From positions 13,856 to 43,571 of the IMG/VR virus record IMGVR_UViG_3300030098_006700: DNA of 29,716 nt; one strand, 5' to 3'. The DNA comes from a virus. Made by a program: the position numbers and the translations under genes. Shown here in pieces: positions 484-22,734 of the stretch. How positions within the stretch are numbered: position 1 is the stretch's first letter; the number at the start of each line of letters is the position of its first letter. The notes under the pieces are model-generated. The model was not told the origin of the DNA, made no database searches, and saw only the letters and a list, made by a program, of their open reading frames with translations.

Positions 484-1173
484 TTGAAAAATATTAAAGA
501 TGTAGTTGTATTAATTCAAGCGCGCCTTTCATCGCAAAGATGTCCTAAAAAAATGGTAAGACCCTTTGCTGATACAACATTAACTGATTTAACTATTGAA
601 AAGCTTTTATCGTCGAGTATAATTCCTAAAGAAAATATTTGTTTAGCAGTGCATGAGCCGGAACTTATTGAAATTGGCGAAAAACATAATATAAATGTTT
701 TTGTCAGAAGTAAAAAGTCTTCAATGGCCGAAGGGGAATCTATGCACACTCTTTATGAGTGGTGGGATAAGATTCCATATAAATACATTGTTATGGTAAA
801 TGCTTGTGTTCCATTTTTGAAAATTGAGACAATAGACAATTTTGTGCAAAAATATATTGATTCATCATCCACTGGTATGTTTGGTGTTGTAGAAAAAAAG
901 AATTATTTTTGGGATAAAGACGGAAACTGCTTAACACCACCAACAGAGGCTGTTATGAATACTAAAACAGCCGATGTAATATACGAGGCTGCCCATTGTC
1001 TATATGCTAGCAGTATGGAAAGTATTGGTAATAATATTTGGATGGGCGACTTTCGGAAAAAGGACGATATCGAGTTGGTAACTGTACCAGAAAACGAAAT
1101 TTTTGATATAGATTATGAGTGGGAATTTAAATTATACGAAGAGCTTTACAAAGCAAAGGTTAATAATGGATAG
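484..1173 (+). CDS. CMP-nonulosonate (acylneuraminate-type) cytidylyltransferase
   Basis: About 229 residues from TTG 484. Enzymes of this family transfer CMP from CTP to a 2-keto-3-deoxy sugar acid, giving the donor used by glycosyltransferases. The N-terminus has the nucleotidyltransferase loop VLIQARLSSQRCPKKM, close to the SpsF/NeuA signature (I-x-A-R-x-x-S-x-R-x-x-x-K). Further on are VNACVPFL (the metal and sugar region seen as N-x-x-x-P-F in NeuA proteins) and a C-terminal EIFDIDYEWEF, matching the D-I-D-x-x-x-D/E metal-binding end. It lies three genes before a NeuB-type synthase, which supports a nonulosonic acid substrate. Whether the sugar is sialic, legionaminic or pseudaminic acid cannot be decided. 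The last 8 bases overlap the dehydratase start. Confidence 0.8.
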   Translation: MKNIKDVVVLIQARLSSQRCPKKMVRPFADTTLTDLTIEKLLSSSIIPKENICLAVHEPELIEIGEKHNINVFVRSKKSSMAEGESMHTLYEWWDKIPYKYIVMVNACVPFLKIETIDNFVQKYIDSSSTGMFGVVEKKNYFWDKDGNCLTPPTEAVMNTKTADVIYEAAHCLYASSMESIGNNIWMGDFRKKDDIELVTVPENEIFDIDYEWEFKLYEELYKAKVNNG

Positions 1174-2164
1174 TAAGTTTATAGACGGTAAAACTTTTTT
1201 TATTACCGGCGGAACTGGCACTTTAGGAAAAGCTCTTGTATTAAAGATAAAATCATGTGGTGGTAAAGTTGTTGTTTTTAGCAGAGATGAAGGAAAGCAG
1301 GCACTTCTCTATGGCCATGATAGCAGTATTATTAGAATTATTGGGGATATTAGGGATTATGATAAACTGAATGTATCCATAAAAAGAAGCAAACCAGATA
1401 TTATAATACACACTGCAGCGCTTAAAAGAATTGATGATATGGAGTTTTACCCAGACGAGTGTGTAAAAACGAATATTGAAGGTTCTGAAAATGTTGCAAA
1501 AGCAGCTTTTGAAAACAAAGTCAAAAAATGTATTTTAATCTCAACTGATAAAGCGTGCCAACCTGTTAATGTATATGGTTCATCTAAGTTTATTGCTGAG
1601 AGGGTGTTTACTAATTATGATTATTTTTCAGAACATACAATATTCTCATCTGTTAGATATGGTAACGTTCTTTGCAGTAGGGGTTCATTCATACCACTGT
1701 GGCTGTCCTTATTAAACGATAATAAAAAGATTAATGTAACATCTTTAGAAATGACTAGGTTTCTTTTTACAATTAACGATGCGGTTGACACTGTATTAGG
1801 TGCTGTTAAGCACTCTGAAGGTGGCGAGGTATTTATTCCACAAATACCTTCCTATGATATGAGAACAATCATAAACGCAATAAAAGTAATACATGCCGCA
1901 GAAGTTCAATATAATGAAGTAGGATTAAGGCCTGGAGAAAAACTGCATGAAGATATGTTAGCGTTAACCGAACTTCCATTTACTTACAAAGTTGACAATA
2001 TTAATCTTTTGTGTGTTAGGCCACAATATACAAACCGTTTGCACAATAAAAAATGGAAAAAATATACTGGCACTCATTTTAATTCTGCTTTGCATGTATC
2101 TGATGACACAAAATCTCTAGTTGATTTAATAATAAGAGGAAGTAAAGAAAATGAATCTCAATGA
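1166..2164 (+). CDS. PseB/CapD-type sugar-nucleotide 4,6-dehydratase
   Basis: A 332-residue extended SDR with start ATG 1166, preceded by AAAGG. The Rossmann loop is GGTGTLG (residues 15-21). The catalytic set is visible as D128-K129 (in STDK) and Y137 in Y-G-S-S-K, with K129 and Y137 eight residues apart, as D132/K133/Y141 are in Helicobacter FlaA1 (PseB). Other family marks are VRYGNVLCSRGS and, near the C-terminus, RPGEKLHEDM. PseB-like enzymes remove water across C4-C6 of UDP-GlcNAc and may epimerise C5, the first committed step to pseudaminic acid; relatives start routes to FucNAc or QuiNAc sugars. The usual next enzyme, a PLP aminotransferase, is not in this window. An upstream in-frame ATG (1115) would add 17 residues without family support. 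Confidence 0.85.
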   Translation: MDSKFIDGKTFFITGGTGTLGKALVLKIKSCGGKVVVFSRDEGKQALLYGHDSSIIRIIGDIRDYDKLNVSIKRSKPDIIIHTAALKRIDDMEFYPDECVKTNIEGSENVAKAAFENKVKKCILISTDKACQPVNVYGSSKFIAERVFTNYDYFSEHTIFSSVRYGNVLCSRGSFIPLWLSLLNDNKKINVTSLEMTRFLFTINDAVDTVLGAVKHSEGGEVFIPQIPSYDMRTIINAIKVIHAAEVQYNEVGLRPGEKLHEDMLALTELPFTYKVDNINLLCVRPQYTNRLHNKKWKKYTGTHFNSALHVSDDTKSLVDLIIRGSKENESQ

Positions 2165-2960
2165 GACTGTTTTAATTACTGGAACAACTGGGATGTTAGG
2201 TAAACAGTTTTTGAGTTTTTTTAAAGATAAATATAAAAATGTATATACTTTAAATAGACAAGACGGCGACTTACTGAATTTTCATTTTGTCAAAGATTAT
2301 ATCTGTAAAATTGATCCTGATATAATTATTCACTGCATCGCTGATACAAACTTAGAACGTTGTGAAAAACAAGAAAAACAAACACTCTTACTACATTGTG
2401 GGTTGACTCATTGTCTATCATCTAATGATTGTAAGGTCGTGTATATATCAACATGTTCAGTAATACAACCACATAATTTTTATGATAAAACAAAACTTCT
2501 TGGTGAGCAAATATGTCTTTTAAATAACAAAAACAGCGTAATAGTAAGAACCAATATATATGGATCAAATTCAAGCTCGGGAAATTCATTATTTGAGTGG
2601 GCCTACAATAGTTTTGCTAGCAATAGACAGGTGACAGGATACTCTGATGTATTCTTTAATGCAATTTACACTAAACAGCTTGTAAGATCTGTATATCACC
2701 TTATTAAAAATAATCACGTAGGTGTTATTAATATCGCGGGCGATTATTCGATCAGTAAGTTTGAATTTTTACAGAAAATATGTAAAATTTTTAACTTTAA
2801 TGAATCTCTTTTAATTGAAGGTAAACAGCCAACAAATTTTTCTGTAAATAGAAACAAAGACATAACGTTAAATATTGACGAGGCAAAACAAAAATACAAT
2901 ATTAAACTAGAATTAGAAAAAGGTATAGTTGAACTTAAAAAAGATTTGGAGATACAATGA
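2151..2960 (+). CDS. RmlD-like NDP-sugar 4-keto reductase
   Basis: A 269-residue SDR of dTDP-4-dehydrorhamnose reductase type. It begins VLITGTTGMLGKQF (Rossmann loop G-x-x-G-x-x-G), has the RmlD-like segment DPDIIIHCIADTNLERCE, and the catalytic Y-D-K-T-K followed by L-L-G-E. Such enzymes reduce the C4 keto group made by a preceding dehydratase, so a two-step partnership with the gene at 1166 is plausible, giving a 6-deoxy sugar nucleotide rather than, or in addition to, a pseudaminic precursor. The start overlaps the dehydratase by 14 bases; AGAGGA at 2135-2140 is a possible ribosome site. The nucleotide attached to the substrate (UDP, dTDP or GDP) cannot be inferred. Confidence 0.8.
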   Translation: MNLNETVLITGTTGMLGKQFLSFFKDKYKNVYTLNRQDGDLLNFHFVKDYICKIDPDIIIHCIADTNLERCEKQEKQTLLLHCGLTHCLSSNDCKVVYISTCSVIQPHNFYDKTKLLGEQICLLNNKNSVIVRTNIYGSNSSSGNSLFEWAYNSFASNRQVTGYSDVFFNAIYTKQLVRSVYHLIKNNHVGVINIAGDYSISKFEFLQKICKIFNFNESLLIEGKQPTNFSVNRNKDITLNIDEAKQKYNIKLELEKGIVELKKDLEIQ

Positions 2961-9093: not shown

Positions 9094-9442
9094 AATAATT
9101 TTGTCAGCAGTGACAGTGGTGTCTATTCTGTTTAGTGTGGGTATATTTGCATATGCGCGTTCTGCCATGGCCCGCTTGCTTTTCGTATCTGAAGAATTGG
9201 GAGATCTTCAGAATATGATAAATGGCTTCGCTAATCATTTAAAAACAGTTTATGAATTGGAGGCGTTTTATGGAGATGAGACTTTACAACATCTTTTAAA
9301 TCATGCAATTTCATTTAATGAACAATTAGAAACGTTTGAATTTATTTACTCCCTAACAGAACAAGAGGCTCAAGAAGCTGATAAGGAAACTGAATATAGT
9401 GACAATACAGAAGAAGAGGCGACGTCGCCGCCCCAAAACTAA
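9074..9442 (+). CDS. Single-pass membrane protein with acidic tail
   Basis: A 122-residue protein with one clear transmembrane segment (about residues 7-27, IILSAVTVVSILFSVGIFAYA), a helical middle with conserved-looking LGDLQNMINGFANHLKTVYE and AISFNEQLETFEFIY, and a strongly acidic C-terminus. A short N-terminus before the membrane segment suggests inner-membrane insertion, but topology is not determined. Similar proteins lie upstream of gene 55 in marine T4-like phages, by recollection. The start may be ATG 9074 or ATG 9080; GAGG at 9067-9070 is better spaced for 9080. The last 44 bases are also read in another frame by the sigma gene. Confidence 0.75.
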   Translation: MEMTRLEIILSAVTVVSILFSVGIFAYARSAMARLLFVSEELGDLQNMINGFANHLKTVYELEAFYGDETLQHLLNHAISFNEQLETFEFIYSLTEQEAQEADKETEYSDNTEEEATSPPQN

Positions 9443-10106
9443 AAATTATTATTTTACGCAAGTTCATGAAGATGCAATAGTCCAATACAGCAAAACTCAA
9501 TGTATCAAAACTAGAACAGATTTATACGTTAATTATATACAGCCAGCGTTCAGTGAAATGGTAGATAAAATAGTTTTTACTTATAAATTTACTACGTTAC
9601 CGAATTGTGACTCACTGCGTGATGAATGCAAAATTTGGCTTGTTACCATATTAGATAAATATGATCAAAGCAAGGGTTCTAAAGCATTTTCATATTTTTC
9701 TGTGATTACTAAGAATTGGTTTATTCATAAAGTAAAACAGCAACAGAAAAGGAATCGTCGCGAAGTAGATCTGGAAAATATTTCTAAGCGTCATGAAGAG
9801 GAATTTTTAGCCACTGAAGAATCATATATTTCCGTCCGTGAAGAAGAAGAATTCTGGTCTTCGTTTTATACTGAATTAAAATCATGGGATATCTCCTTAA
9901 TGAAAGAGAATGATTTGAAGGTCTACAAGGCGATAATCATACTTTTCGAATCAAAAGAAGATATTGAGATTTTTAATAAAAAAGCTATTTATTTATATCT
10001 GAGAGAAATCACAGATTTGAATACTAAACAAATTGTTAATTCTCTTAAGAAATTTCGTAAAAGATATTATAGCTTTAAGGACGATTGGGAAAACGGATTA
10101 TTATGA
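9399..10106 (+). CDS. 55: Late-transcription sigma factor, T4 gp55-like
   Basis: A 235-residue protein starting at GTG 9399 (AAGGA 14 bases upstream; no other good start follows nearby). The first residues are a basic tract, QKKRRRRRPKTKNYYF, as in gp55 relatives of marine T4-like phages. The middle (DECKIWLVTILDKYD, then KGSKAFSYFSVITKNWFIHK) matches sigma region 2, which contacts core polymerase and the -10 element; region 4 is absent, as in gp55. In T4, gp55 directs host polymerase to the TATAAATA late promoters with gp33 and the gp45 sliding clamp. Its presence predicts a single -10-like late motif elsewhere in the genome; see the TTAAATACCCC sites. The gene ends with an ATGA overlap with the next one. 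Confidence 0.82.
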   Translation: MTIQKKRRRRRPKTKNYYFTQVHEDAIVQYSKTQCIKTRTDLYVNYIQPAFSEMVDKIVFTYKFTTLPNCDSLRDECKIWLVTILDKYDQSKGSKAFSYFSVITKNWFIHKVKQQQKRNRREVDLENISKRHEEEFLATEESYISVREEEEFWSSFYTELKSWDISLMKENDLKVYKAIIILFESKEDIEIFNKKAIYLYLREITDLNTKQIVNSLKKFRKRYYSFKDDWENGLL

Positions 10107-10402
10107 CTCAGGATTTGGATAAATTAATAGAAGAAGCTTTGGGAAATATTCGCAGTGATCGTAAAGTTGCGCGGGAATTTTTGAATGAAATAGCAACGCA
10201 AATTGCAACCGATGCAGATAATAATAAATACCTGAGTCCTGTGGCTGCTAAACATATTGAAACAATGCAGCGATCTAATGAGCAATTAGTTAAACTTATC
10301 GGCCTGCGACAAAAAGCAGGAGTTGAGAATGTAGAGTTGACCGATGAAGATAAAGACAGCTTGTTAGATATGATTCAGGGAAATATAGAAGATGGCCGCT
10401 GA
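10103..10402 (+). CDS. Small helical protein, possible terminase small subunit
   Basis: A 99-residue acidic, mainly helical protein starting at ATG 10103 in the ATGA overlap; an in-frame TTG at 10085 would add six residues. The segment AAKHIETMQRSNEQLVKLIGL followed by ELTDEDKDSLLDMIQ resembles the pattern in gp16-like small terminase proteins and related unknowns of marine T4-like phages, from memory. The assignment is weak: there is no large terminase gene in this window to support it. The last 11 bases overlap the M15 peptidase gene. Confidence 0.55.
   Translation: MTQDLDKLIEEALGNIRSDRKVAREFLNEIATQIATDADNNKYLSPVAAKHIETMQRSNEQLVKLIGLRQKAGVENVELTDEDKDSLLDMIQGNIEDGR
10221..10232 (+). promoter_or_regulatory. 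Weak late-promoter-like match (AATAAATACC)
   Basis: The bases ATAATAAATACC differ by one base from the T4-like consensus TATAAATAC and lie about 160 bases before the ATG of the M15 peptidase gene. The codons here (Asn-Asn-Lys-Tyr) explain the sequence equally well, so this is kept only as a low-confidence site. Confidence 0.15.
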
Positions 10403-11618
10403 CGAAAACGGTCCAATTCCTTCGGAATCGCTCACAACCGTTGAAGCAATGAATGACTGGCTGTTTCGCCGTCAATCTCGCTTTAATCTTTTTGGCAGGA
10501 AGAGTGTTTTCAAAGCTCAAGTGTTGACCCCTCCGAAAGCCCTTGCTGTAGAGGGTGCCTCTATAGAGAACGCTGAACATGTTTGTATGATAAGATTTAC
10601 ATCACCACACATGCCACATAAGAAATTTTTACCAGATCCGTGCGAGTTGAGTTCTGCAGAAAATCCAGCCTACGTAACAAGACTTGTATCATTACATACA
10701 CGAATGGTCATACCTTCTCAACACGATGGCCCAATGCCTATCGTTAATGATATAGTAGATGTTGTTTTAGAACCTGCAGGCTTTGCTAACGCACCATATG
10801 ATATTCAAACTGCTAAATTCTCAAAACTTAGAGATAGGCCAACTCCCGAGAATGCCAATTTGGAGACTGGTTGTGCTCCAATAGCTTCGTTATTTGAGGG
10901 CGGTGCAAATATAGCTATAGTAGGCGGCGCCCTTTTAGATTATGATGGACCAGTCGTTTTGGGAGGTTCTGGTGGTGAAGGAAAAGTAGCATCTGCGTCT
11001 GGTGTAGAATATTGGCGGTTTGAAAAATCATTTAGTGTAATAGATGCAGCCGTGCGTCCTGATTTTGAAGCTTTCTTTGAAGAATTAAAATCCATGGGAT
11101 ACACACCAAAAATTACTTCCACACGCAGGAGTGTCAAACATCAATGGATGTTGAAGGTGGGCATCTTATCTGGTATCACACCTGCTAGTCCATGTAACTC
11201 CGATCATCAGTATGGATTTGCTATAGACATGAATGCTGGAACACCAACCGGCGGCAATGTAAATTCTAAATCCTCTTCTTCCGCGTGGGCGCCCATTGTA
11301 ACTGTAGCAGCCCGACACAATCTTAAGTGGCAAGGAATGAAAGATCGAGTGCATTTTTCTCATACTATGTCTGCTAAAGTATTAACAAAATTAAAACAAA
11401 AATGTAAAGATTACTATTGGACCAAATACGGCACAACTTGGTCAAATTGGCCGCGTAATTTCCCAGATGAATTACAATATATCGACCCACCAGTTGATGG
11501 GGTGCCTATGATGGGGGATGAGGCGGCAATTTCTGCAGCAGCGGGCACAGTATTGTCTTCTGAGTCCGATAGTGAAACGGACCCACAAGATAATGAATCT
11601 GGCGCCGGGAACGTCTAG
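10392..11618 (+). CDS. Virion-associated M15 peptidase with adaptor domain
   Basis: A 408-residue protein in two parts. Residues about 15-175 form an adaptor domain, with FLPDPCEL (79-86) and AYVTRLVSLHT, shared with the next gene. Residues about 213-340 form a D-Ala-D-Ala carboxypeptidase/L-Ala-D-Glu endopeptidase-like domain of the M15 family: S270-x-H272-x-x-G-x-A-x-D279 and D318-x-x-H321, supplying the zinc ligands His272, Asp279 and His321 and a catalytic acid. It should cut the peptide stems of peptidoglycan. There is no signal peptide, and the location with tail genes suggests a tail-borne enzyme used during entry rather than a lysis endolysin; this is inference. A proline- and acid-rich tail of about 40 residues follows. 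It overlaps the previous gene by 11 bases. Confidence 0.82.
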   Translation: MAADENGPIPSESLTTVEAMNDWLFRRQSRFNLFGRKSVFKAQVLTPPKALAVEGASIENAEHVCMIRFTSPHMPHKKFLPDPCELSSAENPAYVTRLVSLHTRMVIPSQHDGPMPIVNDIVDVVLEPAGFANAPYDIQTAKFSKLRDRPTPENANLETGCAPIASLFEGGANIAIVGGALLDYDGPVVLGGSGGEGKVASASGVEYWRFEKSFSVIDAAVRPDFEAFFEELKSMGYTPKITSTRRSVKHQWMLKVGILSGITPASPCNSDHQYGFAIDMNAGTPTGGNVNSKSSSSAWAPIVTVAARHNLKWQGMKDRVHFSHTMSAKVLTKLKQKCKDYYWTKYGTTWSNWPRNFPDELQYIDPPVDGVPMMGDEAAISAAAGTVLSSESDSETDPQDNESGAGNV

Positions 11619-11629
11619 GGGATATTAGT

Positions 11630-12847
11630 GTGTTACAAATTGATTCTTTAAGTGACGAAAAAATCTTGTTAGAGTGGTTATTTTTACAAGAGAATACATT
11701 TGATATTTATTCAAATAAAGAGGAATTCGCCATAAAGGTGTTGTCAAATCCAGTCAGTTTATCGCAGGCTGGCGCCCGCGCCATGGGAATGCCTGGCAAT
11801 TCTTCTGTATCTGGTGAACAATATGTTTTTATGGGGCGAATCATGGGCGAGGGTGCTCCATCTCCACATGAACAGTTTTTGCCAGATCCGTGTGATTTAG
11901 CAACAACTGAAGAGCCAGCTTATATCACTAGACTAATATCCATGCATACTAAATTTCTTATATCCAATAAACAGCCTCCCCCGTTCACAGTGGGGAGTAT
12001 TGTTTACGGTCGTTTAGGTTGCAGTTCTGGAGAAGATGGCGGCACTTATAATCTACAGTACGCGGAATTAGATCGTTTAAGTTATAAAACATCAGCATAT
12101 TATGAACAACAAAAGACACTTGATTGCCCTGAAGTTAAAGGAATAAACGATCTATTCCTGTCAGGAGAGCCTTTTGCTTTGCAAGAAGTGTCACGAGTCG
12201 GGGCAGGGGCAGATGCAGCCGTAGTGAATATTAATATATCCCCAAGCGATTGGTTGCCATGCATTGAAGATATTCGGCCACTTTTGGATTTTATTGCCAG
12301 CGGGGAAGGCGGATACAATTCTATGAACCAGGGCACGTCTAATAACCAAATTGTGGGAAGCACTCATGACGCGTCAACTATTATAGGCTCAAACCTTACA
12401 GAGATGACCATTTCACAAGTACAAGCATACCAAGCAAAACCGAGTGGAGATCCAAAACGATTATTTGCTGCCGGTAGATATCAAATTATCCCTGCGACCA
12501 TGCCTAGTGCAATTGCGAATTCGGGATTAACTAATGACCTTGTGTTTAATGAAGAAAACCAAGATATTTTAGGAGCAGCATTAATTTTTGGGAAAAGGCC
12601 AATTATGGGTAATTATATTTTAGGGCTACATGATAACCAGCACGAAGCTCATTTAGCTTTTGCTCAAGAATGGGCATCAGTCCCAGATCCAACAAAAGAA
12701 CCACCACAATCTTACTATGGCCACGGAAATAAATCTGCACATACAAACGAACAAGTGGCTGCAGCGCTAGATGCAGCCCGCGCCGCCGTTTCTACAAAGT
12801 GCGGCGCCTCATTGTCTGCAGCAGGCACCGATAGTTCGTATGGTTAA
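11630..12847 (+). CDS. Virion-associated lysozyme-like protein with adaptor domain
   Basis: A 405-residue paralogue of the upstream gene. Residues about 10-180 repeat its adaptor domain, with LLEWLFLQENTFDIYSNKEE, FLPDPCDL (83-90) and AYITRLISMHTKF. From about residue 205 a lysozyme/transglycosylase-like domain appears: LLDFIASGEGGYNSMNQG with candidate catalytic Glu226, MTISQVQAYQ, then FAAGRYQIIPAT (279-290). Such domains cleave the glycan strand, so the two proteins would attack both bonds of peptidoglycan. The arrangement recalls T4 gp5, where an OB domain and lysozyme sit on the spike, though the adaptor's fold here is not known. Start is GTG 11630, with AGGGG at 11617-11621. The C-terminal region is Ala-rich, with no visible spike repeat. 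Confidence 0.8.
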   Translation: MLQIDSLSDEKILLEWLFLQENTFDIYSNKEEFAIKVLSNPVSLSQAGARAMGMPGNSSVSGEQYVFMGRIMGEGAPSPHEQFLPDPCDLATTEEPAYITRLISMHTKFLISNKQPPPFTVGSIVYGRLGCSSGEDGGTYNLQYAELDRLSYKTSAYYEQQKTLDCPEVKGINDLFLSGEPFALQEVSRVGAGADAAVVNINISPSDWLPCIEDIRPLLDFIASGEGGYNSMNQGTSNNQIVGSTHDASTIIGSNLTEMTISQVQAYQAKPSGDPKRLFAAGRYQIIPATMPSAIANSGLTNDLVFNEENQDILGAALIFGKRPIMGNYILGLHDNQHEAHLAFAQEWASVPDPTKEPPQSYYGHGNKSAHTNEQVAAALDAARAAVSTKCGASLSAAGTDSSYG

Positions 12848-12903: not shown

Positions 12904-13839
12904 ATGGCGAAAAAAATTCCCTTTGGTGAATTGGGTATAAACCCAGATTATATCACTGTACAAATGGGCAAGGATGTCCGACCTCACTTAAATATTTTGC
13001 CGCAAAACAGTGGACTGCTCGGTACGCCGGCACCTATTCCTACGTGGGGCTACAACACACCTCCAGGTGCATATCAGATAGAAAACAACGGAGCTTATAT
13101 TGTAGCGGGCAATTTGGGTCCATCCAATTCCACCCAGGGTGCTGGTGCTCAAGGTGCTCACACTCCCACGGTGGACATTGTAGTCGGTCGCGGAGCCTGC
13201 ATAAATCAAGGTAAAGGGCCACAAGAAGGTGATATAGTAGAGAGTAACTTTGCCGCCGATGCTGCCCGTGTTTTTGTTAGTCGGATGACAGATTTGGATC
13301 GGTATTTTGGGCTAGCCAAAGAAGGAACGGCTGATGCAGGAAAATTGGTTAATCGTTCTGGAGTTGCAGCAAAAGCTGACAAAGTGGCTTTAATAGGCCG
13401 CGAAGGGGTAAAAATTGTTACAGGTCCCGCCCAAGGTGCTAAATTTGGCCTTAGTGGCGAGTTAAATTCTACTTGTGGTAAAATACAACCGCACGTACCC
13501 AAAATTGAACTCATCGCTGGCAATAATTATGACGCAACACAGGGTGTGGGCTTGGGGGATGCTACCCGTGATTCTTTGCGGCAATTACATGACATTATAC
13601 AAGATCTATTAGGGGCTGTTTATAATTTCGCCCTGTTACAGACTAACTGGGATGGTGTACTGGGTGTCACACCGCTCACTCATCATGCTGCTGGCGCCGC
13701 CCCAAAAGTTATGGGTGATATTACTTATGTGATGAGCACTCTTTATTCCACTAGATTAAATTTGATGCTTTGGCATTTCAATACGTTGTCTCCATGGGGT
13801 GGAGAATATATTGTTAGTAGAAATGTGAAGACAACTTAA
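12904..13839 (+). CDS. Probable baseplate spike or hub structural protein
   Basis: A 311-residue protein, rich in Gly, Ala and Asn. The N-terminal half is a Gly/Pro-rich segment (for example PIPTWGYNTPPGAYQIENNG). The middle DIVVGRG, NFAADAARVFVSRMTDLDRYFGL, then RSGVAAKADKVALIGREGVKIVTG has the alternating hydrophobic/polar pattern of a beta-helix or prism. The C-terminal half is helical (RDSLRQLHDIIQDLLGAVYNF). It follows directly after the two adaptor-hydrolase genes, as the C-terminal spike domain follows lysozyme in T4 gp5, so a spike or tip role is possible. I do not recognise a named family. The ribosome site GAGGAAA and the 56-base upstream gap suggest its own transcription start. Confidence 0.6.
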   Translation: MAKKIPFGELGINPDYITVQMGKDVRPHLNILPQNSGLLGTPAPIPTWGYNTPPGAYQIENNGAYIVAGNLGPSNSTQGAGAQGAHTPTVDIVVGRGACINQGKGPQEGDIVESNFAADAARVFVSRMTDLDRYFGLAKEGTADAGKLVNRSGVAAKADKVALIGREGVKIVTGPAQGAKFGLSGELNSTCGKIQPHVPKIELIAGNNYDATQGVGLGDATRDSLRQLHDIIQDLLGAVYNFALLQTNWDGVLGVTPLTHHAAGAAPKVMGDITYVMSTLYSTRLNLMLWHFNTLSPWGGEYIVSRNVKTT

Positions 13840-13862: not shown

Positions 13863-16800
13863 ATGGCAGAATCTAAATTCTTACCCTTTCAGGACACCAA
13901 TGGCGATGGTTTAATTGACATTTGTGATATTATAACCGTTGAAGAACCGAAATATTGTCCCGAGTGTATACCCAACCCTAATGCTATTGTACCAAATTGG
14001 CATGATCGCACACGTTTTGAACCGTTTTTAAATGAGAAAATATGCCACTACCAAGTGGCCATCAAAGCTAAAAATCATACAACCACGGGTCTCCCAGACC
14101 CCGAGAAGGCTACTCAAGAAGAGGCTATGGAAGCCCTTACAGAAATTTTTGATGAATATTTTGAAATGGCTATAAAGGGGATGTTAAAGGTTTATAACAA
14201 AGATGACTCACAAGATAGTTTAGATATTGTCAAAGAGGCAGTCGAATATCATAAATTTTGGCTTCCTCCTCGTCCTTTGTCAGTTTTACAGCTTTTGTAT
14301 TCTGTACCCAAAGAGGTGATAGACGGCTTAGATGATAGAGAAGATGATGAAGAAGAGGAAGACACATTAGAGGGTCTCGAAGTTACTATTAGTGCCAAAG
14401 CCATCGGTCCAATGATGATGCGCGTACGGAAAACTCTCAAGCTATACACATCATATTCCTATATTTATATGGCTAATGATGGCGGTAATTTGCTCAGAGT
14501 GCAGGATGATGTAACATTTTATCTGGAGCCATATGGCGATTGGGGCTTTGGAGGCGGCATTATGTCAAATGTGCTGCCGCAGTTGGATAGTTTTTTGAAT
14601 AAATATGGATTTGCTGTTCCATATGGGGTATTTGGCGCAGACCTCAACCCATTTGCTGGATATGACAAGGTTACTGAATTGACTTTTACATTTGGTGATG
14701 GAACTGGCACAACTTACGATGGTAGGTCTGACGAATATGTATTGAAAAAGCTAAGTTTTTTCACAGAGGAATGCGGCGAAAAACCAATTATTTATAGATA
14801 TAATGGAAGACTAGAGGCCCTTAATAGTGAATCAGCATGGCGTGATAAAACAGCCATGGCATACCTAGCCAATTTGCCCAAGATGGATAGTGATATTATG
14901 GCCCGCGTTCCGATATCATGGCTGGAATTTGTTGAAAAACACACGTATCCTAAAATATATGGTACTGCTAATTTAGTTTTTGAGGATACTGTCAGTAGTT
15001 GTGTTATGGAAGCACTTCAAAATGAAACTAAACAGTTAGGTCAAGACATTTTAAATGAAGTGTTTAGTTTGGGTGATGCTATAGCATATAAATTTCATGA
15101 AAATTTGTGCAAGAAGTCGCTAGGTGAAGCTGAAGAAGAGAAAATAAAATTGGGACTCATTTATGATCCTGTTACGGGAGCCACCACGGATTTATATAGC
15201 ATGGCTCTTATGCAGGCTTATCAAACACTAGAAGATGAAGACCAAGTTTTTATGAATTTGTGCATGCGAATAATGAGCATGGGTGTTGGCTCTCCCGCAG
15301 GTCAAATGTTGGATGAACTATGGGCTAATAGTCTAGATGGATTAAAGTGGTGTGGTCTTACAGATCTTCTGATGGAGGTCGTAGGGTGTTTAGCTGGAGG
15401 CTTAAGTTTTGAAGAATATTTAGCTACAATTGTAGATTCAGCCTTGCGCGGAATGAACATCAATAATTTTGGTGATTTGTTTATTGGGCTTCCTCCTGAC
15501 AAACAAGCAGAACTTGATGCTCTTGTCAAAAAGAATTTAGAAGAAGGAAATATATTTTCTGAAGGCGATAGTGCTGACCAATATTCAGATTCATTAGCTA
15601 ATATGGGGGAAACGTCGCCCGCTAATGATAAATTTTGGGAATGGACGAAGCCGTGGGAAGATGATTCCATCGCCGCCGCCGAAAAGGCTGCTGGTGATAA
15701 AGGCCACATGACCCATGAGGAACAGCAACAAGATAATTTCAATGAGCGTACGCTTGTACAACAGTTGGACATTGGCTCAGAAGAAAACCGCAATAAGCTT
15801 AGTTCTAATGTGGTTATGGAAGCATATATTAAAGCACTCTTGGAAGTATACCAAGAAAACCTTTTAGATTTGGTGGATGAGTTAAATAAATTTCCAGGCG
15901 CCCAGCTAATTGCGAATGTTATTACATTGTTGGACTGCCCACGCCCAGCCATGATGAATCCGTCAGTATTTGATTTTATCAAAGATCTTGAATTGCCGTT
16001 TTGTCGCGATATGAACGATATTGCTTTTCCTAAGCTGGTTAATCCTTTCGGTTGGTTCCCTAAGTGGGCAGATATTACGTCCGCTATTAAAGATGCTGTG
16101 ATGTATGCACTACAGCAGCTTATTGTTACTATTATTGTCAAGCTAATAGTGAAAATATGTGAACTTATTGGTAATGCACTGTGTAACGCACTCGGAGTCG
16201 TCGGAGATGTCGCAGCATCACTTCCAGATCTTTTAACTGGCAGAGATAATTTACAGAACTTAATTAAAGAAGCCATTTGTGGAGAAGATGCTGATGACGC
16301 TGTGATTGAAGGTACAGTAATAGACATGGTAGCACTTTTGGGACTTGGCGGCGCAGCTTTTGCAGATACAGAAAAAGCTCTTATGTTTGCTGGTGACGTC
16401 AGTGGAGCTTTGACTAGATTAGAGTTAAACCAGTTGATGTTGGGAGAGCCGACAGAAGATACACTTAGAATTGTCATGAGCATTGTTGAAACACAACATC
16501 CTGAATATTTAGATGCTATTCCGAACAAAGAAAATGCCGCAGCCATGTTCAAGGGAATGGGTAATCTATTCCCAGCCCCATTTAGGGCCGCTATGTTGGA
16601 TTTCGTTCAGCAGTTGCCTGACAATGATGTAATGCCAGCAAACCCTTCATTGTGTGCCACAACTGAGCAAATTGAAGCTTTCAGTAATCTTCGTTGTGAA
16701 ATTTTGTCAGGCCGCGCCACACCAGAACAATGTTGTGAAATGTTCGATGACATACGAGAGTCAGCTAAACAAGATATCAGCGATCTTATGAAAGCGACCA

Positions 16801-19800
16801 GTAGGGGAGACTGGATTGCCAATAATATTCCTCCTATAGTATCCGATCCTGGCTGTGATAATGGTATCGCGCCCTTTGAGCCTGAAGTTGCGGCCTCCAC
16901 TACAACGGCTGCGCTTGGTAATCAATTAGAACAATTAAAAGTAGATTATAGTACCGATATGATCGGCAACGGCCCAAGCAATAGCGATTACGGACTAGTC
17001 AATATGATTTTATCTGATACGATGGGGAGGCCGCTGACCACGCATATGCGTAAAGTTAATAACCGAGCACGTTATGTAGATTTTTATATTCCCGATGGCG
17101 CACTGGATGACTTAGACGCGTCTGCGGGCAGCTTTTCTATCTGGGAAGCACTTTCGGTAACTAATAATAATATCTCCGATTATCAAGCTCAGCGCGGTGC
17201 CTATCCATCGCGTGTAGCTGACTATTTGCGAAGAAAATTAGAGGAGATTGGCGACGGAGATGTTGATGTAGAGCTTGGTAATAAACCTACAGGCACTGAT
17301 GCATCCACAAGAGAATTTGACTATGGCGAACAGTGGCCAGATTTTGATGTTACTGGGGAAAAACTTCATGAAGATGATCTCCCTGGCAGGCATGTTGATT
17401 TAGTAAAACTTCCAGATTACGGCTATAATGTGCGGATTGACGTCACGGAAGATAGTGATGGAAAAGCAGACGGAATTCAAGTTACACAACTTGGAAGAAA
17501 ACAAAATCCTGATATTTCTATAGAATATAAAGATGCTGCTTCTGGTGAGGGTCCTTATATAGATGAATCTAAAGGTCGCGCAACGTGGATATATGGATTT
17601 GATCTGTACGTATATTTTGCCGACATCCATAGAAACGATGAAACTGGTGAAATTGTCAATAGAGCCGATGATAATTTGAGAATTCAAATTGTAGAAAAAT
17701 TTAACATGGCTGGTGGTATTGATAAAAAATTAAAGAAGTTGATGCCGCGAAAAGAATGGAAAGAATATGAAGAACAATGGGAAGCCGAAGGTAGCCCATC
17801 GGTGATTTATGACGATAGATACGAATTCCTTGGAGTTGATAACACTTTGGCGGGCGTAATACACGCCATTGGCCCGTCAGAACCGCTGCCAAAAAACAGC
17901 CCGTTCCCCGAGAAGGCTACTCTGATTGATAAATTCGAAGCCTATCCTGAATTTATTAACAGCTTTCAAACATTGACTGAATATAGTCCGCCAACAATTC
18001 TATTGACAGAAATGGCGGAAGTTATGGATGATACCGACATGTCGTTGGATGCAGCGAAATCATGGCGCCAAGATACTATACAGAATGCCCTCCAAATGGT
18101 GTTTTCGGAAGTTTCTGCCAACACTGCTAGTTGGGCTTATGGCGCGAAATATGACGATCTTGATGATAAGGATATAGAATATGGATTTAACGAAGATGGA
18201 ACGTGGGTGCCATATGGTGATGTCAGAATAGAAATGGATGATGGAGGCTCACGCCCGCTGCGTAACAGAGATATGAAACTAGGTATCAGTTATGACCAAT
18301 ATTTGAATGAAGAGGCGGGGACACCCGAAGATACTCGCGTATTATACCTAGATCCGAATATATATGGCGGTCGTTATTCAAACCCTGCAATCTATATTAA
18401 GCCTCTCAAGAATGAGGGGTGGCTTGGGATGGTAGATGTTTTATTTCCAGATTTAAGTCCCTGTAAACCACAGACTTCGGACTTAGTTGATTTTGGGGAA
18501 ATTCAACAGTTGATTGATGATATATATCCATACATGCCAGAAGATGAGAGATTAAAATCATCTCCTGATTGTGTAATAGAAAAGCCTTATGCCCGCATTT
18601 TACCACGCCCTGCCAAGGCTGGTCTGGTTGGTTTGATTAAGGCCGCCATTAGAATTTATGGAAGCAATTTCTTTATTAAGTCTCTCCCTGTTTTTACTAC
18701 ATTTGGTCCTAAATTTCCAGATAGTTACAGTTCTGTATATGCTTCTTTTATAGTTGAAAAAATGGAAGAGTCTTTTAAAGATGCGCGAGGACCGTCATGG
18801 GTTATGTTTGATGTTTTCTCGGACCATGAATTTTGGTATGCGTTTTTAGAACAATCGGTCCAGATGTATTCTGTTTTGGTTGATGAAGGAAAGGTAGATC
18901 CTCCCCCATTGGTTTTGGCTGCTCTTTTCCGCCTTAATGATATGCAAGAAGAATATGATTATCCTTTCAAAGATGATCTCAAAGAAGCCCGAGATTTAAA
19001 TCTTGCAAACAGGTTTCAGAGCCTCAAAAGCTATAGGGAAGAAAAAAATCTATCACAAGTGCGGCAGACCGAGGAAGATGCTAAACTGATCTTAAAAGAA
19101 TTCGTTATAGAAGAATTAAACTTCTTAGCCAAGAAATTTATGTCTAATCTCAAGACTGTTAATATGAAACCACTTTATCAAGAGTTGGATTATTATATTT
19201 TAGATAATATGTGCGGCGCATCAGAGTTGACGCTTAATGCCGCAGTAAAACCAAACGGTTCATTTCAAGCCAGCTATATAGACATTCAAACAGAAGAAGG
19301 AAATGGATATTATACCAGTGGAAGCGAATTTGTAGTTAGTAAAGATATAGATGAATCGGGACTTTCGAGAGGTGAAGAATATATTGGTTATTACAATATA
19401 ATTACAGATGAGTATGGCACCCCTGTTTGGCGCAGTGGCGAAGAATATAACGAAGAAGCTCTACAGGATTTGTTAGCTCCAATGGTCAATATGACGGAAG
19501 TTGCAATTGGAGATGTCCCCGATTATGATACTGCCAGTACGGATTCATCTTTCTTCGTAGAAAAATATATTGTTGTTGATGGTGAACGATATTCTGTTGA
19601 CAATGGTGTGGCAGAAGTAAAAGACGTCACAGATCCCACACAATTAATATCGGATGTATATCCAGGTACTTTGGAGATAGTGACGGATGAAAATGGCCAA
19701 GCTGTTGGTCTTACTGGAAAACTAGGTGTACGTTATGGAATGAGATTTGGGGCTGTTGTGGATTCTCAAAAATATGAATTGACCGCAGTAGAAATAGATG

Positions 19801-20525
19801 CACTGGATACAACCATTAGCGCGTTTAAAACATTAGCGCCAAACAGCAAACTGTTGCTCTGCCTGCTACAACTTCTCGTGAAGGATGACCAATATAGGTT
19901 AGTAACGCGTTATATAATACCAGTTAATAAATTGACTGCTACTGCAGCAATTTATAATTCTCAAGCTTTCTTGTCTTCCATTAATCAGCTTTCTGTGGCG
20001 GAAAATGCAACTTGGCGTTCCGCCTGGAGTCCTTTGGATTATGAAGAAAATAACCCTGGCAAGCCGGGACTTTCTGCTATAGTTACGTTTGATTCAGATT
20101 ATAATGTAGAAAGTGTACAAGAAAAGCAATTAGGATTGCAGACTGCCGCCGGAGACTATGGCGAAGAAAATCCAGAAAGCAGTTATATTGGCTCTATGGA
20201 GGGATCGTGGGCGAACGTTAATGATCGCCAGCAAGCATGGACTCCAGGCTTTATAGAATATGATGATTGGGAACAAGAGACTTTGATTAATTCTACTTAT
20301 CGGATTAAAAAACTATTTAGAACATATTATAATTCGCGCGAATTTGATCCTGGCGATATTGCTAAGGCCGCCGGTCGTGCAGGCCCAGGTTCAATCTTTT
20401 TCAAGCGTATGAGGGACGCATTACGACCAGCCCCAGGGCGCCGTTTATTACCATGGTGGAGGAAGAGAAGGCTTGTCACTAATCCATATAATGCTGATGG
20501 TGAATTGTGTGAAAATGAAGATTGA
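13863..20525 (+). CDS. Giant virion structural protein (2220 aa), function unknown
   Basis: One open frame of 2220 codons starts at ATG 13863, with a weak GTAGG ribosome site. Residues 11-22 read DTNGDGLIDICD, an EF-hand/dockerin-type calcium loop with Asp/Asn at positions 1, 3, 5, 9 and 12, followed by a C-P-E-C pair (Cys32/Cys35). A very acidic stretch lies near residues 156-172. A helical hydrophobic region (about 745-790, LIVTIIVKLIVKICELI) could be a membrane segment or a buried helix. The rest alternates acidic, Asp/Tyr-rich strands with helices. It immediately precedes gp25 and gp6, suggesting a baseplate or tail role rather than a typical helical tape measure. The C-terminus is basic (RAGPGSIFFKRMRDALR). 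I do not recognise any enzyme motif. Its size and lack of close family memory make it the largest unknown here. Confidence 0.75.
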   Translation: MAESKFLPFQDTNGDGLIDICDIITVEEPKYCPECIPNPNAIVPNWHDRTRFEPFLNEKICHYQVAIKAKNHTTTGLPDPEKATQEEAMEALTEIFDEYFEMAIKGMLKVYNKDDSQDSLDIVKEAVEYHKFWLPPRPLSVLQLLYSVPKEVIDGLDDREDDEEEEDTLEGLEVTISAKAIGPMMMRVRKTLKLYTSYSYIYMANDGGNLLRVQDDVTFYLEPYGDWGFGGGIMSNVLPQLDSFLNKYGFAVPYGVFGADLNPFAGYDKVTELTFTFGDGTGTTYDGRSDEYVLKKLSFFTEECGEKPIIYRYNGRLEALNSESAWRDKTAMAYLANLPKMDSDIMARVPISWLEFVEKHTYPKIYGTANLVFEDTVSSCVMEALQNETKQLGQDILNEVFSLGDAIAYKFHENLCKKSLGEAEEEKIKLGLIYDPVTGATTDLYSMALMQAYQTLEDEDQVFMNLCMRIMSMGVGSPAGQMLDELWANSLDGLKWCGLTDLLMEVVGCLAGGLSFEEYLATIVDSALRGMNINNFGDLFIGLPPDKQAELDALVKKNLEEGNIFSEGDSADQYSDSLANMGETSPANDKFWEWTKPWEDDSIAAAEKAAGDKGHMTHEEQQQDNFNERTLVQQLDIGSEENRNKLSSNVVMEAYIKALLEVYQENLLDLVDELNKFPGAQLIANVITLLDCPRPAMMNPSVFDFIKDLELPFCRDMNDIAFPKLVNPFGWFPKWADITSAIKDAVMYALQQLIVTIIVKLIVKICELIGNALCNALGVVGDVAASLPDLLTGRDNLQNLIKEAICGEDADDAVIEGTVIDMVALLGLGGAAFADTEKALMFAGDVSGALTRLELNQLMLGEPTEDTLRIVMSIVETQHPEYLDAIPNKENAAAMFKGMGNLFPAPFRAAMLDFVQQLPDNDVMPANPSLCATTEQIEAFSNLRCEILSGRATPEQCCEMFDDIRESAKQDISDLMKATSRGDWIANNIPPIVSDPGCDNGIAPFEPEVAASTTTAALGNQLEQLKVDYSTDMIGNGPSNSDYGLVNMILSDTMGRPLTTHMRKVNNRARYVDFYIPDGALDDLDASAGSFSIWEALSVTNNNISDYQAQRGAYPSRVADYLRRKLEEIGDGDVDVELGNKPTGTDASTREFDYGEQWPDFDVTGEKLHEDDLPGRHVDLVKLPDYGYNVRIDVTEDSDGKADGIQVTQLGRKQNPDISIEYKDAASGEGPYIDESKGRATWIYGFDLYVYFADIHRNDETGEIVNRADDNLRIQIVEKFNMAGGIDKKLKKLMPRKEWKEYEEQWEAEGSPSVIYDDRYEFLGVDNTLAGVIHAIGPSEPLPKNSPFPEKATLIDKFEAYPEFINSFQTLTEYSPPTILLTEMAEVMDDTDMSLDAAKSWRQDTIQNALQMVFSEVSANTASWAYGAKYDDLDDKDIEYGFNEDGTWVPYGDVRIEMDDGGSRPLRNRDMKLGISYDQYLNEEAGTPEDTRVLYLDPNIYGGRYSNPAIYIKPLKNEGWLGMVDVLFPDLSPCKPQTSDLVDFGEIQQLIDDIYPYMPEDERLKSSPDCVIEKPYARILPRPAKAGLVGLIKAAIRIYGSNFFIKSLPVFTTFGPKFPDSYSSVYASFIVEKMEESFKDARGPSWVMFDVFSDHEFWYAFLEQSVQMYSVLVDEGKVDPPPLVLAALFRLNDMQEEYDYPFKDDLKEARDLNLANRFQSLKSYREEKNLSQVRQTEEDAKLILKEFVIEELNFLAKKFMSNLKTVNMKPLYQELDYYILDNMCGASELTLNAAVKPNGSFQASYIDIQTEEGNGYYTSGSEFVVSKDIDESGLSRGEEYIGYYNIITDEYGTPVWRSGEEYNEEALQDLLAPMVNMTEVAIGDVPDYDTASTDSSFFVEKYIVVDGERYSVDNGVAEVKDVTDPTQLISDVYPGTLEIVTDENGQAVGLTGKLGVRYGMRFGAVVDSQKYELTAVEIDALDTTISAFKTLAPNSKLLLCLLQLLVKDDQYRLVTRYIIPVNKLTATAAIYNSQAFLSSINQLSVAENATWRSAWSPLDYEENNPGKPGLSAIVTFDSDYNVESVQEKQLGLQTAAGDYGEENPESSYIGSMEGSWANVNDRQQAWTPGFIEYDDWEQETLINSTYRIKKLFRTYYNSREFDPGDIAKAAGRAGPGSIFFKRMRDALRPAPGRRLLPWWRKRRLVTNPYNADGELCENED

Positions 20526-20552: not shown

Positions 20553-20921
20553 ATGAGTGGATTTGGACCCCGTTTGCCGATAACTTATAGCGACATAGAC
20601 GGATACATGCTATTAAAAGATTATGCTTCAGTTATACGGCAAAATTTTAAAATGTTAATTCTCACCAACCCTGGTGAAAGAATAATGGAACCTGACTATG
20701 GCGTGGGGATGTCGCGCTTTTTATTCGAAAACTTTAGTGACACGACATATGCAGACATAGATAGAAGGATTAGACAACAAACTAAAATTTACATGCCTTT
20801 TATAAACATTGTCGAAGTTCAATTTAATGCACCTGATCTTGATTCAAATACTTTGAACGTTTCCATTAAATATTCCATCCCACAAATCGGAGCGTTCGAT
20901 TTACTTCAATTTACTATTTAA
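20553..20921 (+). CDS. 25: Baseplate wedge protein, T4 gp25-like
   Basis: A 122-residue protein of the GPW/gp25 family, about the size of T4 gp25 (132). The family core is plain: QNFKMLILTNPGERIMEPDY followed by GVGMSRFLFEN, where the N-P-G-E-R and G-x-G-x-x-x-x-L-F-E motifs are diagnostic. The protein ends with VSIKYSIPQIGAFDLLQFTI. gp25 joins gp6 and gp53 in the wedge core and contacts the sheath of contractile tails, so it is one of the best markers that this phage has a contractile tail. Ribosome site GAGGAAA (20542-20548) has the same form as that of the gene at 12904. The next gene, gp6-like, starts 16 bases downstream. Confidence 0.93.
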   Translation: MSGFGPRLPITYSDIDGYMLLKDYASVIRQNFKMLILTNPGERIMEPDYGVGMSRFLFENFSDTTYADIDRRIRQQTKIYMPFINIVEVQFNAPDLDSNTLNVSIKYSIPQIGAFDLLQFTI

Positions 20922-20937: not shown

Positions 20938-22734
20938 ATGTCAGATGAGCAAAAAAAAATAGTTCCTATAGATTATACACATCGAGAATTTCAAGAAATT
21001 CGACAAGATCTTATTGGAATAGCGGAAAGATTTTATCCGGATACTTTTCAAGATTTTAGTGAAGGTTCTTTCGGGGCCATGATGGTAGATGCGGTGGCCT
21101 ATGTTGCCGACCAGTTAAACTTCTATTTAGATTATAATATCAATGAAACGTTTTTAGATACAGCATATCAATATAGCAACATTGTGCGCCATGGTCGAAT
21201 TATGGGATATAAAGATCCTGGCCCTCCTTCAACTTACGGAACCGTTGCATTGTTTGCAGTAATCCCTGCTTCAGCAACTGGTTTGGGTCCAGACAGTTCA
21301 TATCTGCCAATAATCAAGCGCGGAACATCATTCACATCGTCTGGCGGCTTGTCATTCATTTTAACAGAAAATGTTGACCTGGCATCACCAAAAAATTTGA
21401 CTGTAGTTGCTCGTGTTGATGCTGCGACTCAGGCGCCAACACATTACGCCATAAAAGCATATGGAACGGTTGTATCGGGCAGGTACGGAACTCAACAAAT
21501 TAGCGTTGGCTCTTATACAAGATTTCCAAGATTTTCTCTTAATTCGCCCAATATTGTAGAAATTATATCTGTTGTTGATACAGAGGGGAACGAATATTTT
21601 GAGGTGGATTATCTCGCACAGGATATGGTCTTTAAAGAAATTCCTAACAACAATTTTAAAAATGATAACGTACCTTCGGTGCTTAAACCATATTTGGTGT
21701 CGAGAAAATTTGTTGTAGAGAGAGATAGAAATGGTGTTGCACTTCAATTTGGAAGTGGAGATAGTGGTACATCAAACGTCATAGTAGATCCGCAGTCAGT
21801 TGCTATTAATTTACATGGCAAGGATTACGTAACCGACACAACATTTGATCCCACACGCTTATCTAAAGATACAATTAATGGAATTGTGCCAGTAAATACA
21901 ACTCTAACTGTTACTTATCGAGTTACAAATACGGCTAACTCGAATGTTGCAGCGCAGAAATTAAATAATGTTTCGAGAGTTAATTTGGAATTCAAGGATC
22001 GCCAATCTTTAAACCCAACCACTGTCGGTGAAATTCGTTCTTCGATTGAAGTTAATAATGAAACTCCTATTGTGGGTAGTGTATCATCACCAACGACGAT
22101 GGATATAAAAAGGCGCATCTATGACACTTTCCCAACACAGAACCGTGCAGTAACACAGGCTGATTATGAAAATATCGCTTATCGCATGCCTGGAAAGTTT
22201 GGATCGGTTAAACGCTGTTCTGTGCAGCGAGATCCAGATTCGATGAAAAGAAACCTTAATATGTACGTTATTTCAGAAGATCAATTTGGTAAATTGACAC
22301 AAAGTAATGCAGTTATAAAAAACAACTTAAAAACTTGGCTGAATCAGTATAGAATGTTAAGCGATACGATTGATATCTTGGATGCTTATATAATTAACTT
22401 TGGAATCGAGTTTATAGTAACCCCTCAACTTGGTGCGGATCGCTATGATGTCCTTGATGCGTGTATCGCACAACTGACTCGCAAATTTATGAATCCGTAT
22501 TTTATTGGAGAACACCTGTATGTGACTGATATTTATAGTGAACTCAACAAAGTTAAAGGGGTTTTAGATGTTACTAAAGTGGTAATAACGAACAAGTCGG
22601 GTGGCAATTACTCAAGTACAGAATTTAATATTAACCAGAACATGTCGCCAGAAGGAACGTATGTGATTTCTCCTAAAAATTCACTCTTCGAGCTTAAATA
22701 CCCCCAGACAGATATTGTAGGAAAAGTTAGATAA
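20938..22734 (+). CDS. 6: Baseplate wedge protein, T4 gp6/phage J-like
   Basis: A 598-residue protein matching the gp6 wedge family (T4 gp6 is 660 residues). The N-terminal helix DYTHREFQEIRQDLIGIAER and SEGSFGAMMVDAVAYVADQLNFYLD followed by the ETFLDTA stretch are typical of gp6/J baseplate proteins. Later NRAVTQADYENIAYRMPGKFGSVKR matches the family's conserved core (the R-A-V-T-x-x-D-Y motif). In contractile tails gp6 forms the inner iris ring around the hub and holds the wedges together. The start is ATG 20938, with GAGGG about 7 bases upstream; the stop TAA overlaps the next ATG by one base. Confidence 0.9.
   Translation: MSDEQKKIVPIDYTHREFQEIRQDLIGIAERFYPDTFQDFSEGSFGAMMVDAVAYVADQLNFYLDYNINETFLDTAYQYSNIVRHGRIMGYKDPGPPSTYGTVALFAVIPASATGLGPDSSYLPIIKRGTSFTSSGGLSFILTENVDLASPKNLTVVARVDAATQAPTHYAIKAYGTVVSGRYGTQQISVGSYTRFPRFSLNSPNIVEIISVVDTEGNEYFEVDYLAQDMVFKEIPNNNFKNDNVPSVLKPYLVSRKFVVERDRNGVALQFGSGDSGTSNVIVDPQSVAINLHGKDYVTDTTFDPTRLSKDTINGIVPVNTTLTVTYRVTNTANSNVAAQKLNNVSRVNLEFKDRQSLNPTTVGEIRSSIEVNNETPIVGSVSSPTTMDIKRRIYDTFPTQNRAVTQADYENIAYRMPGKFGSVKRCSVQRDPDSMKRNLNMYVISEDQFGKLTQSNAVIKNNLKTWLNQYRMLSDTIDILDAYIINFGIEFIVTPQLGADRYDVLDACIAQLTRKFMNPYFIGEHLYVTDIYSELNKVKGVLDVTKVVITNKSGGNYSSTEFNINQNMSPEGTYVISPKNSLFELKYPQTDIVGKVR
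22695..22706 (+). promoter_or_regulatory. Candidate late promoter, TTAAATACCCCC
   Basis: TTAAATACCCCC lies inside the end of the gp6-like gene, about 30 bases before the ATG at 22734. It shares TTAAATACCCC with the site before the gene at 12904. It codes for Leu-Lys-Tyr-Pro, so chance is possible; repeated position upstream of structural genes is the argument for a promoter read by the gp55-like factor. Confidence 0.3.

Follow-up and report, generated by a model that had tools for sequence, protein, structure and literature searches.

In VgrG proteins, a gp27-like part, a gp5-OB-like part and a spike are united in a single polypeptide. The three VgrG proteins of V. cholerae (VgrG1/2/3) share a common spike-forming part; two of them carry different C-terminal domains and one carries none, and a mixed trimer has been reported as needed (PMC8668125). 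In phage T4, gp5 is both a subunit of the baseplate hub and the tail lysozyme. A maturation cut between Ser351 and Ala352 separates it into an OB-fold plus lysozyme part (gp5*) and a spike (gp5C) (PMC7650644). Here we describe a locus of an uncultured, marine, tailed phage in which two adjoining genes, termed gpA and gpB, join a common N-terminal domain to two different predicted wall-cutting enzymes. Our literature search, which was of partial coverage, found no published description of such an array. The stretch of DNA that was analysed (29,716 nucleotides, hereafter the window) comes from a virus record of 86,978 bases in IMG/VR (87 kb, partial), referred to as G000.

Two tandem genes in a T4-like baseplate block

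The neighbourhood of gpA and gpB resembles a T4-like baseplate block, with all genes on the plus strand. Its 5' anchor is a gp55-like late sigma factor gene (9399-10106; PHROG late sigma factor, E=0.0016), homologues of which, 55-85% identical, were found on 80 contigs. It is followed by a small conserved gene of 105 aa (sm, 10085-10402), gpA (10392-11618, 408 aa, ATG start), gpB (11630-12847, 405 aa, GTG start), W311 (12904-13839), a gene for a conserved 2220-aa protein (13863-20525), a gp25-like baseplate wedge gene (20553-20921; Pfam GPW_gp25, E=2.1e-13), and a gp6-like baseplate wedge gene (20938-22734; PHROG baseplate wedge, E=5.9e-20; ~30% identical to Mel-JY01 and Immuto). The 2220-aa protein gave no convincing family match with Pfam and PHROG profiles. 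We refer to the place between sm and W311, which gpA and gpB occupy as first and second gene, as the slot. The two ORFs fill exactly the span 10392-12847 named in the original prediction; gpB starts 11 bases past the gpA stop codon, with AGGGG just upstream. The nearest annotated phages, ~30% identical in the sigma factor and gp6, are Flavobacterium phage Immuto, Microcystis phage Mel-JY01, and an uncultured 484-kb phage. Elsewhere in the window (1115-2960), two adjoining genes both match one nucleotide-sugar epimerase family (PHROG 540).

The original prediction had proposed that the N-terminal regions of both proteins align while their C-terminal parts are different enzymes. Aligned locally, residues 12-146 of gpA and 5-150 of gpB score 208 and are 33% identical across 135 aligned positions (z=38; 1000 shuffles with a mean of 29 and a maximum of 52), and all three motifs that had been quoted are present. 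The C-terminal parts are unrelated to each other (score 31-32, z=-0.4). An HMM of the N-terminal domain (N-domain) recognizes residues 32-143 of gpA (10485-10820, E=2.6e-26) as well as residues 25-147 of gpB (11702-12070, E=5.7e-30). The record G000 holds no third copy of this domain.

The C-terminal domain of gpA (residues 218-323; 11043-11360) matches the Pfam M15_4/VanY models, with a Peptidase_M15_4 score just over the curated cut-off (25.7 vs 25 bits). It retains the zinc/catalytic motif HxxxxxxD ... D/ExxH of the M15 family in the form HxxxxxxD plus DxxH (H272, D279, D318, H321), and profile score and motif together place gpA in this family. Its nearest solved relative, to which it can be aligned, is the phage L-alanyl-D-glutamate peptidase 2vo9. 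Weak sequence matches in the PDB between gpA residues 175-217 and designed 'Cake' propellers were dropped, being the sum of many tiny repeats.

The protein gpB has no match in Pfam. Its residues 217-387 (12278-12790) match phage endolysin/lysozyme PHROGs (37890, 30077, 90, 1200; E down to 1.9e-23), contain SGEGGY at 224 and AAGRYQ at 280, and are 47-52% identical to the lysozyme domain of cyanophage proteins. This similarity spans the whole domain, placing it in the cyanophage tail lysozyme family (PHROG 90/37890). As judged by these sequence matches, the proposed pair of a peptide cutter and a glycan cutter within a baseplate block is borne out. When gpA, W311, and a divergent W311 served as tblastn queries, none of 50,697 phage records matched. 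Direct searches of IMG/VR for the pair by DNA patterns and exact peptides were equally fruitless, apart from an antisense match in L006 that is due to chance.

The slot is filled in all 81 syntenic loci

Relatives were gathered by a sigma factor alignment search, which yielded 80 contigs out of at least 525 relatives (55-85% sigma identity). Together with the window, these represent 81 loci. Both sm and W311 occupy the same places in 81/81 loci, and the slot between them is never empty. It holds one gene in 70 loci and two or three in the other 11, which represent nine distinct arrays. On the 3' side of W311, most loci have a gene of the 2220-aa type, followed by gp25 and gp6 where the contig reaches that far. 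The iterated N-domain HMM matches 56 out of 96 slot proteins, but none of 480 shuffled sequences and none of 3000 unrelated ORFs; it does not reach the other 40 slot proteins. Some slot proteins are so short (190-265 aa) that there is no room for an enzyme. Two of them match the N-domain HMM, and the rest show a similar pattern by eye. Many slot genes are clearly of the N-domain plus enzyme type, and the tip of the tail thus seems to act as a socket into which different cutting tools can be fitted. At the other extreme of length are slot proteins of 929-1325 aa (L055:10901-14878, L052:10965-14834, L047:10987-13776), which may carry several enzyme domains per chain, as an alternative to tandem genes.

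By BLAST, the C-termini of the 43 N-domain proteins identified first form 23 groups. With 79 slot proteins, Pfam identified VanY/M15 (19, largest model), Amidase_2 (6), Phage_lysozyme2 (5), M23 (4), GDSL (2), SLT (2), Phage_lysozyme (1), and a tyrosine-phosphatase-like domain (1). The slot repertoire hence comprises M15 and M23 peptidases, amidases, several lysozymes, transglycosylases (SLT), GDSL hydrolases, a phosphatase-like domain, or no enzyme at all. The T4-type Phage_lysozyme model (PF00959) found no match in the records of G000 and 12 relatives.

Eight of the nine multi-gene arrays combine clearly similar N-domains (z 17-142) with differing C-termini. The N-domains of L025 are 91% identical, with C-termini that match M23 in one copy and a hub tail lysozyme in the other (PHROG 27932, E=5.4e-21). 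Within-array N-domain identity is 84% in L036, 64% in L045, 60% in L014, 49-53% in L044, 44-48% in L010, 33% in the window, and 30-45% in L087, where an M23 copy, a GDSL copy, and an enzyme-free copy stand side by side. For the C-termini, z is near zero in most arrays, with short similarity left in L025 and L036. The exception is L038, whose two slot genes have unrelated N-termini.

One slot protein (L014:4863-6602) has the protein-tyrosine-phosphatase motif HCTHGADRTG in its C-terminus, with a Y_phosphatase3 match just under the cut-off (E=2.5e-4); if this is a phosphatase-like domain, a module of the tail hub would be a strange place for it. The GDSL/SGNH hydrolase domains of L045:11002-12276 and L087:4633-6006 are possibly wall or LPS de-esterases. 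The third slot gene of L010 (13637-14947) has a SAGC motif and matches PHROG 3000/33083; its product possibly has an L,D-transpeptidase-like fold.

Duplication and exchange of slot genes

In a tree of the N-domains (46 rows, 120 columns), copies from the same locus are sisters with high support in L010, L014, L025, L036, and L044. This implies either at least five tandem duplications accompanied by enzyme replacement, or homogenization of the N-domains within a genome; these five arrays look like lineage-specific duplications. The window pair behaves differently. The N-domain of gpA groups with L016 (99/97), whereas that of gpB joins the L010 trio loosely (86/64). A tree that forces the two together was rejected (AU p=0.0145), which rules out a recent simple duplication. 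Therefore, the duplication is old, or one of the copies was acquired. The original prediction of a duplication followed by domain swapping thus stands as far as a common N-terminal module with swapped enzymes is concerned, a pattern that recurs in many relatives, but gpA and gpB are not each other's closest copies.

Among the 80 contigs (out of at least 525 relatives), L016 is nearest to the window, with identities of 58% for W311, 49% for the 2220-aa protein, and 57% for gp25. Yet it has a single slot gene, the C-terminus of which groups with the M15 proteins and shares only 35% identity with gpA in a stretch of 189 residues. The slot therefore changes faster than its surroundings.

Fold of the N-domain and a candidate spike protein

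An AlphaFold2 model of gpB residues 1-167, based on 48 sequences, reached a pLDDT of 80.7. The model has no significant match in the PDB (E>=0.14) and none to gp5 itself, and most of its best 50 PDB matches are of OB type (PriB, SSB, RPA, uS12, NTR). In a viral library, the sole match with E<0.001 is a protein of an uncultured marine virus annotated as Peptidase M23B, probably a further member of the N-domain plus enzyme architecture. An N-domain profile aligned collinearly with the OB domains of ten T4-like gp5 proteins over 72 columns (P=0.0021, probability 13.5%). Several profile comparisons were tried, and the hhalign probabilities were low throughout (7-14%) despite P values of 0.002-0.005. 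Single-sequence hhalign comparisons with gp5 proteins were uninformative, and a comparison with the Immuto-type hubs was so too. The Gp5_OB model (PF06714) gave no slot matches across 11 records. Below its cut-off, the Phage_base_V model responded in 13 genomes to T4 gp5 and the L012 slot protein only, with no match in G000; the L012 match, placed via the contig range, covers a 'P-x-x-GD-x-V-x-V' stretch. The original prediction had described the N-terminal region as a docking adaptor. With moderate confidence, drawn from sequence comparison and the model, we consider it better read as a divergent gp5-type OB-fold hub module.

Both gpA and gpB end shortly past the enzyme, with no C-terminal spike in the same polypeptide. 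A candidate for the spike is encoded directly 3' of the slot. An HMM of W311, run against 1816 other ORFs, ranks the spike half of the Immuto hub first and the hub of the uncultured phage LR756508 third; the matched parts are collinear, although the hubs taken one by one match only weakly. The structure model of W311 is confident, shows long C-terminal helices and no obvious beta-helix, and has no significant match in the PDB. Inspection of the Immuto and Mel-JY01 hub sequences by eye suggests a similar helix-rich stretch at their C-terminal ends, too. A search of 170-203 kb relatives for a separate Immuto/Mel-JY01-type hub turned up none. These findings suggest, with moderate confidence, that W311 corresponds to the gp5 spike half, encoded as a protein of its own. 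If the spike is separate from the OB plus enzyme proteins, the division that T4 makes by cleaving gp5 into gp5* and gp5C would here be made at the gene level. The original comparison, in which T4 has one such enzyme, had missed that the spike half of gp5 appears here as a separate next gene. The W311 homologue of L078 (11681-12973) starts with a LysM-like sequence, YTVIPGDNLTKISRRYGI, which by its look could be a wall-binding domain on the spike.

Role of the slot proteins

We consider it probable that gpA and gpB are two enzyme-bearing tail hub halves (gp5*-like, OB plus enzyme), with W311 as a separate spike and the slot as a socket for one to three genes. Virion location, enzyme activity and stoichiometry of gpA and gpB are what we infer in the following scheme. 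The N-domain would dock at the tip of the tail tube, in the threefold positions, and W311 would supply the spike half of gp5. When the tail contracts, the tip would uncover both activities, the M15 endopeptidase of gpA (of the L-alanyl-D-glutamate type, to go by its nearest solved relative) and the lysozyme of gpB, and the murein would be cut in its peptides as well as its glycan strands. Across the clade, the OB module would be kept, or duplicated and homogenized, while the C-terminal enzyme is replaced. A more specific version, which we offer tentatively and regard as rather doubtful, is that the hub is a mixed trimer of different OB plus enzyme paralogues around one spike. Two or three enzymes, wall-directed or even not, would then sit at defined positions in each particle and be swapped as cassettes, and the presence of three seats would explain why no array in the 81 loci exceeds three genes.

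The slot proteins could instead be accessory virion wall hydrolases at the baseplate, with an N-domain that is not a gp5 OB hub and another protein serving as hub. We judge this improbable, even though it would account for the lack of a significant gp5 match by sequence or fold, and one cyanophage does have a tandem of M15 and lysozyme genes that adjoins a normal gp5 and is nevertheless separate from it. An accessory enzyme is hard to reconcile with a slot that is filled in every one of the 81 loci, at times by nothing more than a short protein with no enzyme; a place that is never empty and tolerates loss of the enzyme fits a structural part. In addition, the 170-203 kb relatives yielded no other hub of the Immuto/Mel-JY01 type, the slot adjoins a spike-like gene, and the OB alignment is collinear (P=0.0021).

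Many of the matched C-terminal domains carry the PHROG label 'endolysin', and gpA and gpB might accordingly be endolysins that act at the end of infection, with a substrate-binding or regulatory N-domain. This is very unlikely, given their place in a baseplate gene block, the enzyme-free versions, and the tandem copies with different enzymes. Moreover, four large relatives have a separate Amidase_2 gene (~307-326 aa) far from the slot, which disfavours the slot proteins as lysis enzymes; the likelier lysis enzyme of these four phages is this separate amidase of ~310 aa. Finally, a chance likeness of the two N-domains, or one gene being a decayed copy, can practically be dismissed, since against an identity of just 33% stand z=38, a single HMM covering both at E<1e-25, and two intact reading frames with the catalytic motif of gpA kept.

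Comparison with known systems

If gpA and gpB are indeed hub halves, the puncturing hub of these phages would be as modular as T6SS spikes, with a conserved docking unit, a separate needle, and fast-exchanged enzymes, and genes labelled automatically as 'endolysin' in this uncultured clade would probably be entry enzymes. The arrays would allow a test of heteromeric phage hubs and represent a natural experiment on the wall chemistries of the hosts, and the slot C-termini would be a large source of hub-compatible wall-cutting domains.

Cyanophage ACG-2014d has two adjoining genes, gp009 and gp010, which encode an M15 protein (gpA HMM, E=1.6e-16) and a member of the same lysozyme family (gpB HMM, E=3.3e-47). 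In contrast to gpA and gpB, they have long N-termini that do not match the slot N-domain; further downstream, gp5 is present as a normal gene of its own. The same pair of activities on an unrelated N-terminus indicates that this combination is not unique to the window. The hubs of Immuto, Mel-JY01, and LR756508 share the gene order sigma - hub - gp25 - gp6 and have a spike half that matches W311, but they unite docking domain and spike in one chain without a fused enzyme; in Mel-JY01, the next gene after the hub encodes a chitinase-like enzyme. In KVP40 gp5, a hub can evidently do without its enzyme domain: the record notes that the lysozyme domain is missing, as in the enzyme-free slot genes, yet this gp5 is annotated as a single gp5 gene, and the stretch examined holds no paralogue array.

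The order of a putative N-terminal docking domain, a wall cutter, and then a proposed spike, in a baseplate block near gp6, is that of T4 gp5. Unlike in T4, OB plus enzyme and spike seem to be encoded separately, the number of OB plus enzyme genes ranges from one to three, the enzymes come from many unrelated families, and the N-domain has diverged beyond the reach of the Gp5_OB model. With the 'evolved' VgrG proteins, the slot proteins share the principle of hub paralogues that have a common part and different or no C-terminal domains, L087 being a close parallel. They differ in joining a short N-domain (~150 aa) to an enzyme, without a fused gp27-gp5 core, in a phage and presumably for entry. 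By analogy, T4 gp5 is the closest mechanism and the VgrG set of V. cholerae the closest logic.
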